A DNA stretch of 64,000 nucleotides from Rossellomorea aquimaris (lineage in GTDB: Bacteria; Bacillota; Bacilli; Bacillales; Bacillaceae_B), in contig NZ_VTEX01000002.1 of NCBI RefSeq assembly GCF_008180865.1, positions 186,001 through 250,000 of the forward strand. Direction: 5' to 3'. A model generated the notes under the pieces. The model searched no databases. It saw nothing but the letters and a program-made list of their open reading frames with translations, and was not told the origin of the DNA. Position numbers and translations under genes: made by a program. The stretch's first letter is position 1. Each line of letters opens with the position of its first letter. Below are positions 5,391 to 13,366 of the stretch, one piece after another.

Positions 5391-5528
5391 GTTGGGCTGC
5401 AGGAATTCTCAGGATCATTTAGAGGTATTATTGACTCCTTAGGTGCCTGGCACTTTCCCTATCCTATCAAACTGTCCCGCTACTTATCTCCTAAACCCTT
5501 AAATGCGCCCACTACAAAACAACACACC

Positions 5529-5557
5529 AAAAAAGCACCGGATGATTACGGTGCTTT
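5529..5557 (-). terminator. Terminator of the yfkN-like gene
   Basis: Perfect 9-bp stem AAAGCACCG/CGGTGCTTT. On the minus strand it is followed by a run of six Ts, just downstream of the stop of the gene ending at 5569. Confidence 0.85.
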
Positions 5558-5568
5558 CAAACAAATCT

Positions 5569-8500
5569 TTACTTATTAACCTTTGTAATACGTCCTTCTT
5601 CAACAGGATCTACTGTCCCTTGTGCTTTAATGTATGAAACGAAAGCTTCTAAATCTACGATATCAATGACTTGATTCTTACCTTCTAATAGTACCGTATA
5701 TCCGTCACCGCCGCCTGCCATAAAGTTGTTCACCGTGATTGAGTATGTTTTGGCCAGGTTAAGTGGTTGATCGTCTCCAGTTGTAACGGATTGGATTCTG
5801 CTTCCTTCATGTTTACTGCTATCATATGAAACCTTCAATCCGGAAATCTGTAAGATTCTTGGTGCATTGGGATCTTTCGCCCATTGAGATTCGAATAGTT
5901 CATAGACCTGCTGTCCAGTCAGATCCATCGTTACAAGATCATTACCGAATGGCTGAACAGTGAAGGCTTCTTTCCATGTGATTTCACCTGCATCGATTTC
6001 TGCACGGATACCTCCTGGATTCATAAAGGCAAAATCTGTTCCTGTATGACTTCTCATGGCATCTGCAATCAGATTACCCATGGCAGACTCACCATCAGGA
6101 TTTTGATCCCTGCTGATTCCTTTTTTTGTGTTCCCAATTTTCACATTCAGGATAGGTGCAACATCTGCAAGATATTCATCGAGTAATTCTTTAATCCCGG
6201 CATCTGGCGTGATGGTTCTGACGGCAGATACGATTTCTGCTTTTTTCGACGTGATATCCTTGGTAGCTGGATCAATCACGAAATCCACATCCGAAAACGC
6301 TGTACCATAAGAATACGATTGAACAAGTAGCTTTCCATCCACAATCGTATTTGCATACTGATGATTGTGTCCACCAAACATAATATCCACTTCATCGTCT
6401 ACTTTTGTTGCGATATCAGCCAGTTCTTCTGTAGGGTTGGATCCATCGGTGTTTGATTTCACCGGGTTATGGGATAGGACGACAATCGCCTCTACACCCT
6501 TTTCCTTTAGTTCTTCTGCATATTTGTTAATCGCTTCGGCTTCATCCGTAAATGTTACTCCCGCTGTTCCACTCGGTGTGACAATTCCTGGTGTATCGGA
6601 GAAAGCAATTCCTATAAATCCAACCGGAACTCCGTTAACCTCTTTTACCACATATGGAGAAAGAATCGGTTCTTTGGTTTTGCTATCCACTACGTTTGCC
6701 GCTACATAAGGGAAATTCGCCCCTTCGAACACCCCATATTTAGAGTAGGTTTTCGAATGTCTTCCCCCGTCGATCAGGCGCATCATTTCATCTACACCTT
6801 CGTCAAACTCATGGTTTCCTACAGTACCTACATCAAAACCAATTTCATTTAGCATTTTGATGGTTGGTTCATCCTGTAATAACGCAGATACGGGAGAACT
6901 TGCCCCGGCGACATCTCCTGCATGCACCATTAGTGTGTTGGGATTCGTTGCTTCACGTTCTTTTATATGGGCAGCCAAGTATTCAATTCCCCCAGCATTC
7001 AAACCTTTGTTATACGTGTCCAATTGACCGTGAAGATCATTGATGCCTAACAATTGAACTTCAAAGGGCTCTTCTGCAGGAAAATCAATCTTGTATTTAT
7101 GGAATCCATTCGTACCTTCTCCGACATGATGAATGTTCGATGTTTGCTGAGCAAACATTTTTGCTTCTGGAGAAGACTCAAATGTGACATCAACATTTCC
7201 GGAAATCGGTGCAAACGTCCAGTTCTTATCGGCAGTTGGATTAATCGTTTTGTTTTTAATAATGTAGTTCATGACTACTTGACGATTCTCGTCTGGCGAA
7301 ACATAGATGACTCGTTTCCCATCAGGATTCGCAAGCTTTGTAAATGAAGCACGATAGTTATTCGTAGCCACGACAAACTTCTGATCTTCCTCTACCGGCT
7401 TACCATTAAACATTACGTTTTTCACACGTCTTGTTCCTGCATTAATCACGTTACCGGACTGATCATATTTAGCAGGTTTTGTTACATCCACTTCATAAGT
7501 CACACCATCGATCGTATCAAAGTTGTAAGCTTGGAAATCCTTATTAATCAGAGATTGTTCCTCTGTTTTCGTCGGGTCGATTTGATTAAAGTTTCCGGTT
7601 GTCCATTCGATATATTCTTTTACTTCGGCACCTGTTAAAAGTAACGCTTGAACCGTATTTGGATACTTGTAAAGGTCAGAAACGTTTTTAATCGTCACTG
7701 TTCCTTTAGGAATGTTTGTGTACTCACCGGCCCCATTTCTTCCAGCTTTAAATGGAGCTGCAGATGAAAGGACAGGAAGATCTTCGTATTCAGTTCCATT
7801 TAACGCATTTTCTACATACTCTTTTTGAGCATTGCTGACAATTTGTACGGATGGATCATCCTGTACCCGTGCAAAGAAGCTGTGAATTGGTGCTTCCGTT
7901 TGACCCACTTCACCATTGATGTATTCAATGGTGCTGTCATGGGAGTCTTTTAAGACATCAACCATTTCTTTATCCGCTGTTACTCCTGTTGAAGAAATAA
8001 CTTCCGATTGAGAATCTTTCACTTTCCATTTCCCATTTACCTGTTCCAAAGTTAAGTCAATGACACCAAGTGTTTTCCCGTCAACATTTGCTTGAACGGC
8101 AGCCACACCATTGATTGTTCCTTTTTTATTATCCACGCCTTCAAGGGAGTTGTAGGAAGCATCTCCCGGGAAAGACAGGTGAGTGTGCCCGAATAATATC
8201 GCATCGATTCCGTCTACTTCACTTAGTGGATACACGGTATTTTCTTTATTGGATTTATCTTTGTCAAAACCTGAATGAGAGAGAACAACAACCACTTCTG
8301 CTCCATCCTTCTTCATTTTTGGAACCCATTTTTCAGCTGACGCCACTACGTCCTCAGTCACAACTTTACCTTCCAGGTTCGCTTTATCCCATTGCATGAT
8401 TTGAGGAGCTACGAAACCAATGACACCGACCTTGACCGTTTGCTTGTTCCCATTTTCGTCGACAACTTCCTTGTCCACGATTTTATATGGTTTTACAAGG

Positions 8501-9879
8501 TTTTCATCGTTTGAAGGGTCCTGATCATGATCATCTTTATACACGTTCCCCGAGACGTATGGGAAGTCAGCGCCTTTGATACTATTTTCCAGGAACTCTA
8601 ATCCATAATTGAATTCATGGTTTCCTAAAGTGGCAGCATCATAATCCAATAAGTTCATCGCTTCATAGATCGGGTGCGTTTCATTTTCGATTAATCCTTC
8701 AGATACGGCATTTTCTCCACCTAGAATGGAGACGTACTTGCTATCAATCAATTGCTTGGCAGCTTCAGCCATGGCATTTTTCTCAACTAAAAGGACAGGA
8801 GCATCGTGCTTGGCAGCGAGAACTGATCCCGTTAATCCATCCACGAAATTTCTTCCTGTTGTGACAAACACTTTATCCGTTACTGTATCCAACTCAGTAG
8901 CAATTTTGAGTGACGTTTCAAATCGATTTTGACCGAAAATCCGTGATGGGTTTTTCAGTTGTTTTTCAACTTTCTCACTAATAACCCCGGGTCCACCTAC
9001 AATGATGGTCTTATCTTTCCCTTTAAGAGATTCAGTTGTTGTGCCTGGTACACTATCCTTTTTTGTTAAAAGAATCGGATACCCATTCTTTGCAGCATAT
9101 GGTGCAATCGCAATGGCATCTGGATAGTTTGACCCATCAGCAAGGATGGCAGTGTCGGTGTTCCCGCCAACTTCCTCTGCTATCATGGAGGCTGTCTCAT
9201 AGCGATCAGAACCTTGGATTCTCTTAATATATAATTTCATCTTGCTTAATTCACTTTGTACATCTGCAGAAACGGCATTTACCCCGCCTAAAATAATCAC
9301 TTTTTTCGCACCAAGACGATTTATTTCTTCCTTCGTCTTAGCATTTAAGCTCTTCGTACCCGTCAATAGGATCGGAGCATCCAAGTGATAAGCCAATGGC
9401 GCACCCGTTAACGCATCGGAAAAATTATCAGAACGGGCGATGACTACTGTTTCAGACTTCGCCCAGCCTTTTTTCGATACCTCTACAGCCGTTTCATATC
9501 GATCATCACCTGACAAACGATTCACAAATGTTAAGGGATCAACCTTAGCGATAAAATCAGTAAACGGATTCCCTTGAAGCAGGTCACCATTATCCAACAG
9601 TAAATTATTCGGGTTTTCTTCACGTTCTTTTTTGATCAGAGTTGAAAGGCGAACAAGTCCGTTTTCAACTGGCTTATCAGAATAATAGTCATGGTCCATT
9701 AAACTTCCATGCACATCGGTTGTTTCCATTATTTTTAATTTTACATAAGCATCAGTCGATAACACATTTGTTGGCGCATTTTCTGCCGAAACGGTACCCC
9801 CTGCCGGAGAAGCAATCATACCTAAAGCTAAAGTTGACAGAGCAATACTACTTAACTTCTTTTTTACTCCACTGTTCAA
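5569..9879 (-). CDS. yfkN: Secreted bifunctional 2',3'-cyclic-nucleotide phosphodiesterase/5'-nucleotidase (YfkN-like) with inserted cell-wall-binding repeats
   Basis: About 1,436 residues with an N-terminal signal peptide (KKKLSSIALSTLALGMIASPAGGTVSAEN). The first metallophosphatase domain (CpdB-like) has DVHG near residue 56, DNGD near 97, GNHE near 420 and GHTH further on. The second (UshA-like 5'-nucleotidase) begins near 945 with NDLHG, then GNHE, GGHNH and GNDLVTMDL. Between DNGD and GNHE of domain 1 sit about 280 residues with three copies of a repeat: RLSGDDRYETA...APILLTG...VIILGG, RIQGSDRYETA...YPILLT...IIVGG, and RIFGQNRFETS...APVLLV...VSILGG. These are cell-wall-binding type 2 repeats (CWB2, Pfam PF04122). 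The C-terminus stops right after the nucleotidase domain, with no LPXTG-like sorting signal. The likely role is scavenging phosphate and nucleosides from extracellular nucleotides at the wall. A TTG start at 9879 fits the AGAGGG box best; an in-frame TTG at 9897 is the alternative. Confidence 0.9.
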   Translation of the reverse strand: MNSGVKKKLSSIALSTLALGMIASPAGGTVSAENAPTNVLSTDAYVKLKIMETTDVHGSLMDHDYYSDKPVENGLVRLSTLIKKEREENPNNLLLDNGDLLQGNPFTDFIAKVDPLTFVNRLSGDDRYETAVEVSKKGWAKSETVVIARSDNFSDALTGAPLAYHLDAPILLTGTKSLNAKTKEEINRLGAKKVIILGGVNAVSADVQSELSKMKLYIKRIQGSDRYETASMIAEEVGGNTDTAILADGSNYPDAIAIAPYAAKNGYPILLTKKDSVPGTTTESLKGKDKTIIVGGPGVISEKVEKQLKNPSRIFGQNRFETSLKIATELDTVTDKVFVTTGRNFVDGLTGSVLAAKHDAPVLLVEKNAMAEAAKQLIDSKYVSILGGENAVSEGLIENETHPIYEAMNLLDYDAATLGNHEFNYGLEFLENSIKGADFPYVSGNVYKDDHDQDPSNDENLVKPYKIVDKEVVDENGNKQTVKVGVIGFVAPQIMQWDKANLEGKVVTEDVVASAEKWVPKMKKDGAEVVVVLSHSGFDKDKSNKENTVYPLSEVDGIDAILFGHTHLSFPGDASYNSLEGVDNKKGTINGVAAVQANVDGKTLGVIDLTLEQVNGKWKVKDSQSEVISSTGVTADKEMVDVLKDSHDSTIEYINGEVGQTEAPIHSFFARVQDDPSVQIVSNAQKEYVENALNGTEYEDLPVLSSAAPFKAGRNGAGEYTNIPKGTVTIKNVSDLYKYPNTVQALLLTGAEVKEYIEWTTGNFNQIDPTKTEEQSLINKDFQAYNFDTIDGVTYEVDVTKPAKYDQSGNVINAGTRRVKNVMFNGKPVEEDQKFVVATNNYRASFTKLANPDGKRVIYVSPDENRQVVMNYIIKNKTINPTADKNWTFAPISGNVDVTFESSPEAKMFAQQTSNIHHVGEGTNGFHKYKIDFPAEEPFEVQLLGINDLHGQLDTYNKGLNAGGIEYLAAHIKEREATNPNTLMVHAGDVAGASSPVSALLQDEPTIKMLNEIGFDVGTVGNHEFDEGVDEMMRLIDGGRHSKTYSKYGVFEGANFPYVAANVVDSKTKEPILSPYVVKEVNGVPVGFIGIAFSDTPGIVTPSGTAGVTFTDEAEAINKYAEELKEKGVEAIVVLSHNPVKSNTDGSNPTEELADIATKVDDEVDIMFGGHNHQYANTIVDGKLLVQSYSYGTAFSDVDFVIDPATKDITSKKAEIVSAVRTITPDAGIKELLDEYLADVAPILNVKIGNTKKGISRDQNPDGESAMGNLIADAMRSHTGTDFAFMNPGGIRAEIDAGEITWKEAFTVQPFGNDLVTMDLTGQQVYELFESQWAKDPNAPRILQISGLKVSYDSSKHEGSRIQSVTTGDDQPLNLAKTYSITVNNFMAGGGDGYTVLLEGKNQVIDIVDLEAFVSYIKAQGTVDPVEEGRITKVNK

Positions 9880-10040
9880 ACCATTCAACCCTCTCAAAAT
9901 TAATATGTAAGGAACAACCCAGATCGATCAAACAGTCGAATCGACTCATATTTTATTCTAATCTGAATTATCTAAGACAATTATACTTCGAAAATTGTCA
10001 TTTACTATCATTTTTTTACAAATTTTAATAAATTTCATAC

Positions 10041-10086: not shown

Positions 10087-11910
10087 TCAAATAGGAGTAA
10101 TTGTCCACTCATCATTTTCGTACAGAACTTTATAAACTCCTTCAGGATTATCAACGTCAATATATTTTAATAGCCATTCATTAAACCTTTTATCAGAGTC
10201 CAGTACGACTAAGAAGTCTGATTTCTTGAGGCTTGTAAAGAACTTTTCTTTTTCTTCCTCAGAGCTTAACCCGTTCGTGATTGAATAGTTCATAGATAGC
10301 TGCTCATAGGAAACGATATATTTCAAATATCCTCTATCATTTTTACTCTTTGGGCTATAGTAAGTCACCTCAGGATCAATGCCTCCCGTTGAGGCGATCT
10401 TGCTAAATTTGTTTTTCACTTCCCATCTCATTGAGGAAATCGTTTCCGGTTTTTCCGTAATCACTCTCATATTTCCGCTGAATGGATAGACGAATAGACT
10501 CCCCAGCAGAAACAAAGTAATGATTTTCGAAATAGGCTTATTGTTTATATAACGGTTCCACTCATGGATGACAGCACACATTAATATACCAATCACATAG
10601 ATAATAATCGTTGATTGGTACCTGCCGAATCCTGCAATTCTTGCTGCCTCAAATTCAGGCATTAAATATACATACATGAAATAGAGAGAGAACATGTATA
10701 GAACATAAAAACCATTCGAAATAAAAATGGAGAAAACCAAAAGCCTGGATAGTTTTCTTTGGACCACATACATCACTACCAATAGGATGACGGCAATCAT
10801 ATTAACAATGACGACAGCTTTAAAGTTATTCGATTCTAAATTAGTCGAGGCCCTCCATAACTGTGGGCCGATATGATCCATAAACTCTGAGGACTTTTCA
10901 TTATTCGCGACTTTATCCGGTGTAACAGCGAACTTGTTTGCACCGTAACCCGTTTGGTAAGCCTTAATGGTGTATTTTATCCATAAGTAATTCAAGAACA
11001 TAGGAATCCCGATCAACCACACCAAAGCATTATAGACAATCTTTCTTACATCTTTCGTCAAACGTTTCTTATGGACGTAATAGAAATAGATAAAGCTTAG
11101 AATAATAATGACATTGAATGCCAGAAAGATTTTCCCGCTATCTTTTAGCAGCATAAGTAGGATCAAGATGGGTGTATTCACAATCAGCTGCTTTTTCCAA
11201 TCACCTCTATAGTAATACGCTACAATAACCGAGGCCAAAGCAACCAATCCTAATAAGATGTCCACTAAAAGGTTATAGAAACTTCCCCAATTGACCAGTA
11301 ATAGAGAAATTCCTGCCGCCATCGTTAAAAGAATAACTGCAGGTCTTTTCCATTCACTAAAAAAGTATAGTGTCACGACACAAGAAATAGCTAAAAATGC
11401 CTGCGCCATTAAGGCATAACTTTCATGTTCCCCTAATACTTCCAATATGAAATATATAAACACTGCACTGCCGGGAGGATAGTTTTGAAATGTCACAATC
11501 GTCGAACTGTCAGGTAAGCCATTGATCAGCGACATCTCCCTGACAATTAATCCCCAGTGGCTGAAATTATCATAGTGGGTTAAGATCAGCCCCTTCAAAT
11601 AAATCATCATGGCAAGTATTGACAGGGCAAATACAATGATACCTGGATGAAGCATCGGCATTAATGCTTGTTTCCTTCTAAAGAAAAGAATAAGGTAAAT
11701 AACAAAAAGAATAAGCCCCGAGTAGTAAATGAGATTTACTGCTAGAGGCATAACATTAATTAAACCTGCACAAAACACCACTGTAGTAATGGATGAAAAG
11801 ATAAAGATAGGAATAAAAGCGATATGCACTTTTACTCTATTAAAGGAGAGAAGTCCCCATCCGCTTAAGGAAGCGAATAATAATAAAAATGAAACAACGC
11901 TGCTACTCAT
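10087..11910 (-). CDS. Polytopic membrane protein, GT-C-like glycosyltransferase candidate
   Basis: 607 residues with roughly a dozen hydrophobic segments and a short hydrophilic C-terminal domain (from about residue 485). A conserved-looking extracytoplasmic loop after the first helices reads HYDNFSHWGLIVREM...FQNYPPGSAVF. Acidic residues in this loop are typical of GT-C enzymes that use polyprenyl-phosphate sugars. Its start overlaps the end of the GT2-GtrA fusion gene by 8 bp, so the two are co-translated. I infer a three-part system: GT2 loads a sugar on undecaprenyl phosphate, GtrA flips it, and this protein transfers it to a wall polymer or surface glycan, as proposed for CsbB/GtcA/YfhO. 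The acceptor is unknown and the family was not recognised with certainty. Confidence 0.65.
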   Translation of the reverse strand: MSSSVVSFLLLFASLSGWGLLSFNRVKVHIAFIPIFIFSSITTVVFCAGLINVMPLAVNLIYYSGLILFVIYLILFFRRKQALMPMLHPGIIVFALSILAMMIYLKGLILTHYDNFSHWGLIVREMSLINGLPDSSTIVTFQNYPPGSAVFIYFILEVLGEHESYALMAQAFLAISCVVTLYFFSEWKRPAVILLTMAAGISLLLVNWGSFYNLLVDILLGLVALASVIVAYYYRGDWKKQLIVNTPILILLMLLKDSGKIFLAFNVIIILSFIYFYYVHKKRLTKDVRKIVYNALVWLIGIPMFLNYLWIKYTIKAYQTGYGANKFAVTPDKVANNEKSSEFMDHIGPQLWRASTNLESNNFKAVVIVNMIAVILLVVMYVVQRKLSRLLVFSIFISNGFYVLYMFSLYFMYVYLMPEFEAARIAGFGRYQSTIIIYVIGILMCAVIHEWNRYINNKPISKIITLFLLGSLFVYPFSGNMRVITEKPETISSMRWEVKNKFSKIASTGGIDPEVTYYSPKSKNDRGYLKYIVSYEQLSMNYSITNGLSSEEEKEKFFTSLKKSDFLVVLDSDKRFNEWLLKYIDVDNPEGVYKVLYENDEWTITPI

Positions 11911-12985
11911 TATTCAACAACTCACGACGACCAACATCATTTTTAAAAACCCATTCTCTTTGAATCACAAAACTTACCAGGAACAACAAAGAATCCACGA
12001 TTATCTTAATGACTACCTCTCCAGAACTTACAGCCGAATAAATGTAGTGTACCCCCAGGGCTGAAATCCCCATCTGCACGATGCTCAGGGCATAATATTT
12101 TACCATCGTATTCGATGAACTGGACTTAAATACTACGTTTCTATTAATCATAAAATTAATGAAAGAAGATAAAACCCTTGAAAGCACTGTCGAGACGATG
12201 ATAAATGAATCGGGTAACACTTCTTTTAACATCAATGAGAAAATCATGAATAAAACGATGTCTATCCCAAATGATGCAAAAGAGGATGCTATAAACCTTA
12301 GGAACACCGAATAGATTTTAATAGAATCTTTAATGGGATTGAAGTGAGATGATTTATTTTCTTCTATATAAATTGTCTTAATTTTAACTTCTTCTATTTT
12401 AATATTCTTTTTCTTACATTCCAGCAACATGTTCATCTCGTACTCATAACGTTCACCCTTCACCTCTAGCAGATCATCTACAAACACTGCAGGAATTGCT
12501 CTCAATCCTGTTTGCGTATCTGATACCTTGATACCGCTGGCAAATTTCACAACTACCTTTGTGAGGTTATTACCGAATCTGCTTCTAAACGGAATATTTT
12601 CTTCTGAAAAATTCCTTGAGCCCAGTACTAAACTATTCGGACTTTCCAATAATTTAGCTGCTACTTTTTTCATATCTTCCAATGTATGTTGACCATCCGA
12701 ATCAATCGTAATGAGACCTATAGAATCGTTATAATTCTCATTAAAATATGTAAAAGCCGTTTTTAATGCCCGACCTTTTCCCTGATTCACCTCATGGTGC
12801 AGGACTACACATCCATTCAATCCTTCTAACTCTTCAAAAATACCGTAACACTCTTTTTCACTTCCATCATTTACAATAATAACTCGTGAAAATTGAGCTG
12901 AAATGATTTCATTCACTAAAATAGTCAATTTTTCATCTGGGTTATAGGCAGGAATGATGATGGCAATATCATGTATGGATTTCAT
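11903..12985 (-). CDS. GT2 glycosyltransferase fused to a GtrA-type flippase domain
   Basis: 360 residues from the preferred ATG at 12985, which has GGGAGGAG six bases upstream. An in-frame ATG at 13009 lacks a good site. Residues 1-215 are a family 2 glycosyltransferase of the dolichyl/undecaprenyl-phosphate type: IIIPAYNPDEKL, VIIVNDGS, NQGKGRALKTAF, the metal-binding IDSDGQH, and TQTGLRAI. Residues about 225-350 are four membrane segments of the GtrA family (FASFGIDIVLFMIFS, SFINFMINRNVVFK, ending in FVIQREWVFK). In many bacteria these are separate proteins; here one chain would make and translocate the lipid-linked sugar. It is the first gene of a two-gene operon with the GT-C-like protein. 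Confidence 0.88.
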   Translation of the reverse strand: MKSIHDIAIIIPAYNPDEKLTILVNEIISAQFSRVIIVNDGSEKECYGIFEELEGLNGCVVLHHEVNQGKGRALKTAFTYFNENYNDSIGLITIDSDGQHTLEDMKKVAAKLLESPNSLVLGSRNFSEENIPFRSRFGNNLTKVVVKFASGIKVSDTQTGLRAIPAVFVDDLLEVKGERYEYEMNMLLECKKKNIKIEEVKIKTIYIEENKSSHFNPIKDSIKIYSVFLRFIASSFASFGIDIVLFMIFSLMLKEVLPDSFIIVSTVLSRVLSSFINFMINRNVVFKSSSSNTMVKYYALSIVQMGISALGVHYIYSAVSSGEVVIKIIVDSLLFLVSFVIQREWVFKNDVGRRELLNNE

Positions 12986-13366
12986 TGTATCTCCTCCCAA
13001 AAATTTCAATCTATCCCACTATATCTAAAACAACTGGAAAATTCAATAAAAAAACCATCTCTTCACAAAAACTACAGGATCGAGAATAGTGAACATTCCT
13101 CTTCCTATCACAATACCCAAAGTATACAAATTCACACCTCCGGGACGAGGGGACAGGCCACCTTTATTCACATAAGGTAGAGCCCACAGGCTTGTCTGCT
13201 ATCATTCACTGATAAATTTACTTCTGACAACAACATGCCCCCGCACACCCCACAAACCTGACTCGCATCACCATAAACTACAACCAAATCAGCAAAAATT
13301 CGCAGCAAACCCATAAGGATTCCTGCTTCCCCCTCTATTTTCACTTGCCCTTCACTACTTTACTCC
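12986..13366. other. 380-bp intergenic stretch without a recognised gene
   Basis: Upstream region of the glycosylation operon and downstream region of the sugar ABC operon. It holds only the operon's ribosome binding site at 12991-12998 and a weak inverted repeat around 13150-13195 (GGGACAGGCCACCTT...AAGGT). No ORF with a credible start was found. Confidence 0.5.

Follow-up and report, generated by a model that had tools for sequence, protein, structure and literature searches.

Domain architecture of the nucleotidase

The analysed window, a 64,000-nucleotide stretch of a Rossellomorea aquimaris genome (contig NZ_VTEX01000002.1, positions 186,001 to 250,000), contains on its reverse strand an open reading frame with a TTG start, composed of a 2′,3′-cyclic phosphodiesterase/3′-nucleotidase half (PDE) followed by a 5′-nucleotidase half (NT) (Table 1). 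The position 9879, given as the end of the gene in an earlier, sequence-only reading of this DNA, is an alternative in-frame TTG of the same frame (9897..5569). Pfam profiles match the protein in two Metallophos and two 5_nucleotid_C stretches, besides three stretches of PF04122 (CWB2), and each Metallophos/5_nucleotid_C half carries metal motifs, which gives the layout of a YfkN-like fusion of PDE and 5′-nucleotidase. The NCBIfam model of the bifunctional PDE/3′-nucleotidase, NF006938, scores 844.9 bits against a cut-off of 486; against the multifunctional-enzyme equivalog NF006936 and its kin the protein stays below threshold, at 1119 bits versus 2542. With its motifs intact, the protein is predicted to act as a 2′,3′-cyclic nucleotide phosphodiesterase.

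Table 1. Features of the nucleotidase locus in window coordinates.
Feature	Positions	Strand	Residues	Description
Whole open reading frame	5569..9897	(-)	1442 aa	Probably secreted bifunctional PDE/3′-nucleotidase + 5′-nucleotidase with internal CWB2 cassette
Probable Sec signal peptide	9784..9897	(-)	1 to ~38	KKK, hydrophobic stretch, ..TVSA-E; sequence reading
PDE domain, N-terminal piece	9532..9747	(-)	51-122	Metal motifs TDVH and DNGD
Inserted cassette	8683..9531	(-)	123-405	283 aa in place of a short turn; junction of 19 inserted versus uninserted rows
CWB2 repeat 1	9259..9519	(-)	127-213	PILL motif
CWB2 repeat 2	8968..9222	(-)	226-310	PILL motif
CWB2 repeat 3	8692..8943	(-)	319-402	PVLL motif
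PDE domain, C-terminal piece	7078..8682	(-)	406-940	GNHEFNYG, SHSG, GHTH and 5_nucleotid_C-type domain
NT half	5590..7062	(-)	946-1436	NDLH, AGD, GNHE, SHN, GGHNH; bare end
Terminator-like hairpin with T-run	5528..5557	(-)		Directly after the stop codon; sequence reading

A CWB2 cassette within the PDE domain

The first Metallophos domain, that of the PDE half, is interrupted by the cassette between its DNGD and GNHE motifs, a segment that spans 46–51 residues from DNGD through GNHE in the uninserted relatives compared at the junction. The three repeats reach a total of 211.5 bits against PF04122, far above the curated cut-off of 24.9, which settles the identity of the insert and bears out the sequence-only reading, in which three CWB2 repeats had been placed inside the first metallophosphatase. 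The position of the replaced turn in the alignment to the solved PDE domains 3jyf, 5eqv and 3gve suggests that the cassette would bulge outwards, away from the active site. All 15 other CWB2 triplets of the window genome are terminal, the nucleotidase insert alone being internal.

Nineteen distinct proteins, one from each of 19 genomes of Rossellomorea, Mesobacillus, Neobacillus and their allies, have this junction, and they form one clade in a quick tree of the PDE half (SH-aLRT 99). Every carrier protein contains exactly three CWB2 repeats, with the P[ILV][ILV][LV] motif present in all three. Over eight pairs the cassette shows a dN/dS of 0.014–0.068, indicative of purifying selection. Because the junction is common to 19 distinct homologues and the cassette is under such constraint, its presence is not due to chance: the insertion is real, heritable and old, and the resulting layout is unusual. 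An insert common to all homologues is ruled out, as most homologues, among them 25 Rossellomorea single-PDE relatives, are without it.

The PDE motifs TD.H, DNGD, GNHE and GH.H are retained in 19 of 19 carriers, a count resting on looser patterns with the residues inspected, since stricter patterns missed some carriers. Even with looser patterns, the HSG motif was not matched in six carriers; in alignment A1 the columns of its histidine (H497) and glycine (G499) show no variation across 44 of 44 rows, and four of the six are represented in that alignment, L077 and L105 directly and L052 and L050 through the twins L074 and L101. In the NT half, AGD and GGHNH were each unmatched in 3 of 19 carriers with the looser patterns. 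Some loci (for example, L131 and L144) had no usable PDE row and were left out of the counts.

Comparison with known surface proteins

Bacillus subtilis YfkN, a trifunctional nucleotide phosphoesterase whose solved PDE domain (3gve) scores 446.9 bits against the family profile, resembles the window protein in its PDE/3′-nucleotidase and 5′-nucleotidase halves and in total length. Unlike the window protein, it carries an LPDTA sorting signal, and PMC3222306 describes display dependent on the sortase YhcS, in agreement with the sequence-only reading, which had named YfkN as a sortase substrate of similar length. Relatives with an LPDTA tail (L177, L178, L180 and L182), which judging by that tail may stand for YfkN, have no CWB2 repeats and an NT half of a distant lineage (27–28% identity). 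Uninserted, bare-ended PDE+NT fusions from Mesobacillus, Cytobacillus and Fictibacillus (23 rows) share with the window protein both the type of ending and an NT half of 66–74% identity, but they lack CWB2 and their PDE halves are 51–54% identical to that of the window protein.

Three CWB2 repeats with PILL-type motifs are also found in the C. difficile proteins Cwp2, Cwp66, SlpA, Cwp6 and Cwp8, where they provide non-covalent anchoring to the wall. For the 29 cell wall proteins of C. difficile, PMC4973711 gives an N- or C-terminal position of the triplet, whereas the triplet of the window protein interrupts a catalytic domain. The same Rossellomorea genome encodes an 832-residue 5′-nucleotidase (L219, G000:C11) that likewise combines CWB2 with a Metallophos/5′-nucleotidase-like part, the latter identified by visual inspection and a weak hit with the PDE query; its triplet, however, is C-terminal, with six residues after it, and it has a single NT half. 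Binding modules inside catalytic folds are known from SusG, whose CBM58 binds the sugar substrate, whereas the window insert is of the wall-anchor type. No paper describing CWB2 inside a metallophosphatase turned up among open-access PMC listings, nor did passages of PMC12445088 describe one. Because a heritable, selected case stands inside a catalytic domain, the CWB2 triplet can be regarded as insertable as a domain.

Proposed anchoring through the enzyme core

The probable outcome of a single in-frame insertion is a wall-anchored PDE half with both ends of the protein free, a natural design in which a nucleotide-scavenging surface enzyme would be held by its core. A three-repeat CWB2 cassette would have entered once, in frame, into the turn between the DNGD- and GNHE-bearing segments of the PDE domain. 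Following export by the Sec pathway, the repeats would fold as the known three-part CWB2 module, protruding from the turn, and bind an anionic wall polymer, so that the enzyme core is retained non-covalently. The PDE half would then convert 2′,3′-cyclic NMP to 3′-NMP and further to nucleoside and phosphate, and the NT half would dephosphorylate 5′-nucleotides. Because the anchor sits inside the PDE half, both ends would be free, and the NT half could be exchanged at the linker with anchoring kept.

According to PMC8881574, the three CWB2 repeats together make up a single triangular prism. In C. difficile, as described in PMC4973711, its ligand is PSII, anchoring requires all three repeats, and replacement of the whole PILL motif by AAAA abolishes anchoring, whereas exchange of the proline for alanine alone does not. 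The conserved PILL motifs and the invariant three-repeat composition of the carriers fit this requirement, which argues against a cassette that serves mainly in assembly or substrate capture, for instance by tiling with surface CWB2 proteins or by bringing the enzyme near wall-bound nucleotides. Such a role is rather unlikely, even though C. difficile CWB2 prisms touch one another in the S-layer (PMC8881574) and other CWB2 genes lie within the flanks examined at 7 of the 11 named carrier loci; at the remaining four, Rossellomorea included, these flanks hold no CWB2 neighbour, and a separate role of the cassette would in any case be compatible with anchoring.

Less probable again is a cassette that acts as more than a tether: attached at both ends to the turn between two metal-ligand segments, it would link the PDE active site with binding of the wall polymer, with the enzyme active or oriented on the wall only and the PDE half forming a self-contained anchored module that accepts different NT halves. 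The layout of the protein makes coupling of wall binding and catalysis testable.

The C terminus and exchange of the NT half

The protein ends in ..VDPVEEGRITKVNK-stop (..EGRITKVNK-stop). As had been noticed from the sequence, its C terminus has no LPXTG-type tail, which would combine the motif with a hydrophobic segment and a basic end, and no hidden tail of this kind occurs within the 169 bases read beyond the stop. LPXTG is absent in 19 of 19 inserted carriers; for nine inserted loci that were cut near the stop, the stop is visible in three, through the window and the twins L070 and L073, and the open-frame lengths of the other six allow at most eight further residues. The 71 uninserted PDE+NT fusions comprise 12 with an LPXTG-like tail, 25 with another C-terminal extension and 34 with a bare end, of which 32 are firm, the exceptions being L055 (1178 residues seen of a 1434-aa frame) and L208 (a truncated frame).

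The sequence-only reading had explained the bare end as a swap of anchoring mode, in which a YfkN anchored through LPXTG gave up its sorting signal on gaining internal CWB2 repeats. The difference between 0 of 19 inserted and 12 of 71 uninserted proteins points in this direction (Fisher p 0.064, on related rows), as do the second copies found in carriers (E<=1e-80; 6 of 19), all six of which are without an LPXTG tail. A link between tail loss and insert is not supported, however, as 34 of 71 uninserted fusions are bare too. In the lineage to which the NT half of the window protein belongs, LPXTG is found in none of 16 inserted and none of 23 uninserted proteins, and 10 of the 12 LPXTG tails belong to a separate NT lineage, 27–32% identical to the window NT half. 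Sortases are also kept, each of the 19 carriers having 1–5 sortase-domain matches, at least one above the curated cut-off. Sortase loss in the window genome, which has three such matches, is ruled out.

Inserted and uninserted proteins have traded NT halves (AU p 7e-7). Past the signal peptide, L075 and L085 share 85–100% amino acid identity with L158 up to residue ~920 and 26–58% thereafter (60-residue windows), which points to swaps of the NT half at the linker that do not depend on the insert. Because of this exchange, tail and insert have separate histories, and a replacement of covalent sorting by the cassette is highly improbable; the trading of halves illustrates how anchor and activity can be shuffled separately in surface nucleotidases. 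An assembly artefact, a decaying gene or a gene-prediction error, in favour of which nothing was found, has a negligible probability, the frame being intact in 19 genomes, including five that consist of a single contig (G030, G147, G450, G494 and G537), and the cassette dN/dS low.

Possible source of the cassette

In keeping with the proposed anchoring, each of the 19 carrier genomes contains 15–48 CWB2 repeats besides the insert, compared with 0 (eight genomes), 3, 6, 18 and 24 in 12 uninserted comparator genomes that were picked by hand rather than drawn at random, CWB2-richness and insertion not being phylogenetically independent; the CWB2-rich G311 (24 repeats) and G463 (18) were chosen because they bear uninserted fusions. 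Like-numbered repeats are strictly best in all three rows for only 5 of the 15 own-genome cassettes, with one tie, so that transplantation of the cassette as an ordered unit is likely but not proven. The closest of the 15 is the cassette of the CWB2-nucleotidase, at 59% mean identity, and every repeat of the insert best matches its like-numbered partner there.

A putative wall-binding cassette within the catalytic core

By Pfam, the window protein is composed of two Metallophos domains, two 5_nucleotid_C domains and three PF04122 (CWB2) repeats. Its top NCBIfam matches are multifunctional 2',3'-cyclic-nucleotide 2'-phosphodiesterase/3'-nucleotidase/5'-nucleotidase models, all below the full-length cut-offs, and it scores above the cut-off of the bifunctional phosphodiesterase (PDE) model NF006938. 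The sequence-only reading had placed CWB2-like repeats within the first catalytic domain and had seen no LPXTG-like tail. Both observations hold: the three repeats lie in a cassette, residues 123–405, which substitutes for a short turn of the PDE domain in the junction comparison, and the C-terminus is bare, with a terminator-like hairpin coming next. At the junction the window protein reads ..IAKVDPL[TFVN-CWB2x3-IEN]ETHPIYEAMN.., and its uninserted relative L022 reads ..IAKVDPLQDGETHPVYKAMN...

Coordinates of the nucleotidase, its repeats and neighbouring or related genes
Feature	Position	Strand	Description
Nucleotidase with CWB2 cassette	9897..5569	-	ORF, 1442 aa
CWB2 repeat 1	residues 127-213		window protein
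CWB2 repeat 2	residues 226-310		window protein
CWB2 repeat 3	residues 319-402		window protein
Next gene pair	window 10087-13009	-	607-aa membrane-like protein (by eye), no Pfam match; glycosyltransferase 2 with GtrA-type transmembrane part
Sortase frame and LPNTA-tailed protein	L076:12583-16879		Sporosarcina globispora (G452)
CWB2 gene pair L219	G000:C11:458500-466000		own genome

Homologues were collected from loci up to L214 as 194 reading frames scoring above 300 bits against the C-terminal PDE piece; L019 and L099, without the N-terminal PDE piece, were dropped, weaker paralogues (L017, L047, L048) were excluded, and 158 distinct rows remained, the collapsed duplicates being mostly one genome present in two collections. 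These rows comprise 68 PDE proteins alone and 90 fusions of PDE and 5'-nucleotidase (NT) halves, 19 of which, from 19 genomes, are inserted. The junctions agree in all 19 carriers, each of which has the PDE motifs TD.H, DNGD, GNHE and GH.H and a PILL-type motif in every one of its three repeats; in the NT half, GNHE is present in 19 of 19, and.GH.H and AGD...[AG] in 16 of 19 each. The cassette’s dN/dS (0.014–0.068, 8 pairs) is low, as in the catalytic parts. In a PDE tree computed without the insert (a quick tree, no bootstrap), a single branch (SH-aLRT 99) separates the inserted rows from all others, with a long-branched Metabacillus protein, L115, placed unsurely beside them. The insert has a single origin in this tree, and the cassette, a module of wall-anchor type, is a genuine inserted domain maintained by selection.

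Host range

The closest named record to the window is R. aquimaris JM7 (96%). The inserted form occurs in 3 of 36 Rossellomorea species; in the two besides that of the window, its PDE shares 97% identity with the window’s. Single-PDE relatives without the insert, at 51–58%, are found in 25 of the 36 (frame broken in one, L045), and 8 of the 36 give no match at E ≤ 1e-60. Across the 158 rows, every protein with a PDE identity of at least 64% is a carrier, no carrier lies at or below 58%, and the interval between the two values is empty. In the PDE tree, the Rossellomorea sequences with the insert are placed among those of Mesobacillus, Neobacillus and Sporosarcina globispora, a long way from their genus’s own PDE, which suggests that Rossellomorea acquired the inserted form horizontally.

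PDE matches were found in 175 of 397 genomes of the order sample, 138 of 193 of family f47, which takes in Mesobacillus and Neobacillus (identical sequences) and Cytobacillus (tree neighbours), and 18 of 398 of the phylum sample, with carriers, counted as lower bounds, numbering at least 5, 16 and 2, respectively. CWB2 was not found at six further phylum-sample loci. The single-PDE relatives in Rossellomorea (L022–L046) vary at their ends, some bearing C- or N-terminal SLH-like repeats (by eye) and others a short NPGQEKK.. tail. Locus L082, from a record named Chryseobacterium sp. ISL-80, groups in trees as a Mesobacillus-type nucleotidase, and the record is probably mislabelled or contaminated.

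Tails and exchange of NT halves

Display of B. subtilis YfkN requires the sortase YhcS, according to PMC3222306, and the sequence-only reading took the cassette to replace such LPXTG anchoring. The tails of the 71 uninserted fusions are LPXTG-like in 12, other extensions in 25 and bare in 34 (32 firm). All 39 rows of the window’s NT lineage (at ≥65%), 16 inserted and 23 uninserted, are bare, with LPXTG in none; a separate NT lineage (27–32% identity, split support 100) bears 10 of the 12 LPXTG tails. All 19 carriers have sortase-domain matches, 1–5 in each. By these NT-lineage tails and sortase matches, a swap is not borne out. Because LPXTG occurs in some uninserted proteins and in no inserted one (Fisher p 0.064; rows related), the insert may be weakly associated with its lack. 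Elsewhere in the family, SLH-like, LysM-like and further C-terminal extensions are seen by eye. At L076, about 2–3 kb downstream of the inserted gene and near CWB2 genes too, lie a sortase frame of 197 aa and a leucine-rich-repeat protein with an LPNTA tail.

The carriers do not form a single clade in the NT tree (AU p 7e-7, 16 rows against 29), and the NT half of three of them (L077, L105, L158) belongs to yet another lineage, at 42–43%. Carriers L075 and L085 share 85–100% amino acid identity with L158 in 60-residue windows along the PDE half and the cassette (77 and 88% in the window of the signal peptide) and drop to 26–58% beyond the linker. Between L051 and L052, dS is 0.10–0.31 before the linker and 2.18 after it; L076 and L151 show the opposite pattern (NT 96%, PDE 78%). 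Whole NT halves have been swapped between these related surface nucleotidases. As the sharp identity breaks of the pairwise comparisons fall at the PDE/NT linker and the NT lineages are separate, the insert goes with the PDE half and the tail with the NT half.

CWB2 setting and proposed mechanism

The anatomy, conservation, origin and exchange of the inserted nucleotidase are established, and it would be a new form of known CWB2 anchoring, with the module set inside an enzyme core. The turn bearing the cassette would be at a distance from the metals, because it connects the post-DNGD segment with the pre-GNHE one and differs in length between uninserted relatives, where DNGD through GNHE spans 46–51 residues; YfkN (3gve) has three extra residues at this turn. 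Three CWB2 repeats form one triangular prism (PMC8881574). Anchoring in C. difficile requires every one of the three repeats, as well as the PILL motif taken as a whole, and its ligand is PSII (PMC4973711). The module would bind an anionic wall polymer, and the enzyme would scavenge nucleotides at the wall.

The window’s own genome encodes 48 CWB2 repeats in 16 triplets, the other 15 all terminal (12 C-terminal, 3 N-terminal after the leader). Transplantation of an ordered cassette is likely, with one point against it: repeats of the same number are the strict best match in each of the three rows for only 5 of the 15, the closest cassette among them, with one further tie. Beyond the insert, carriers hold 15–48 repeats each, whereas 12 uninserted comparators of our choosing (4 Rossellomorea and 8 of f47) hold none in eight and 3, 6, 18 and 24 in four (Mann–Whitney p 2e-5; rows related). 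Further CWB2 genes flank 7 of 11 named carrier loci, the Rossellomorea locus not among them. At L219, in the window’s own genome, an 832-aa 5'-nucleotidase-like protein adjoins a large protein that has an endonuclease/exonuclease-like portion. Both were named by eye, both carry a CWB2 triplet at the C-terminus, and the pair is a possible wall-bound nucleic-acid scavenging set.
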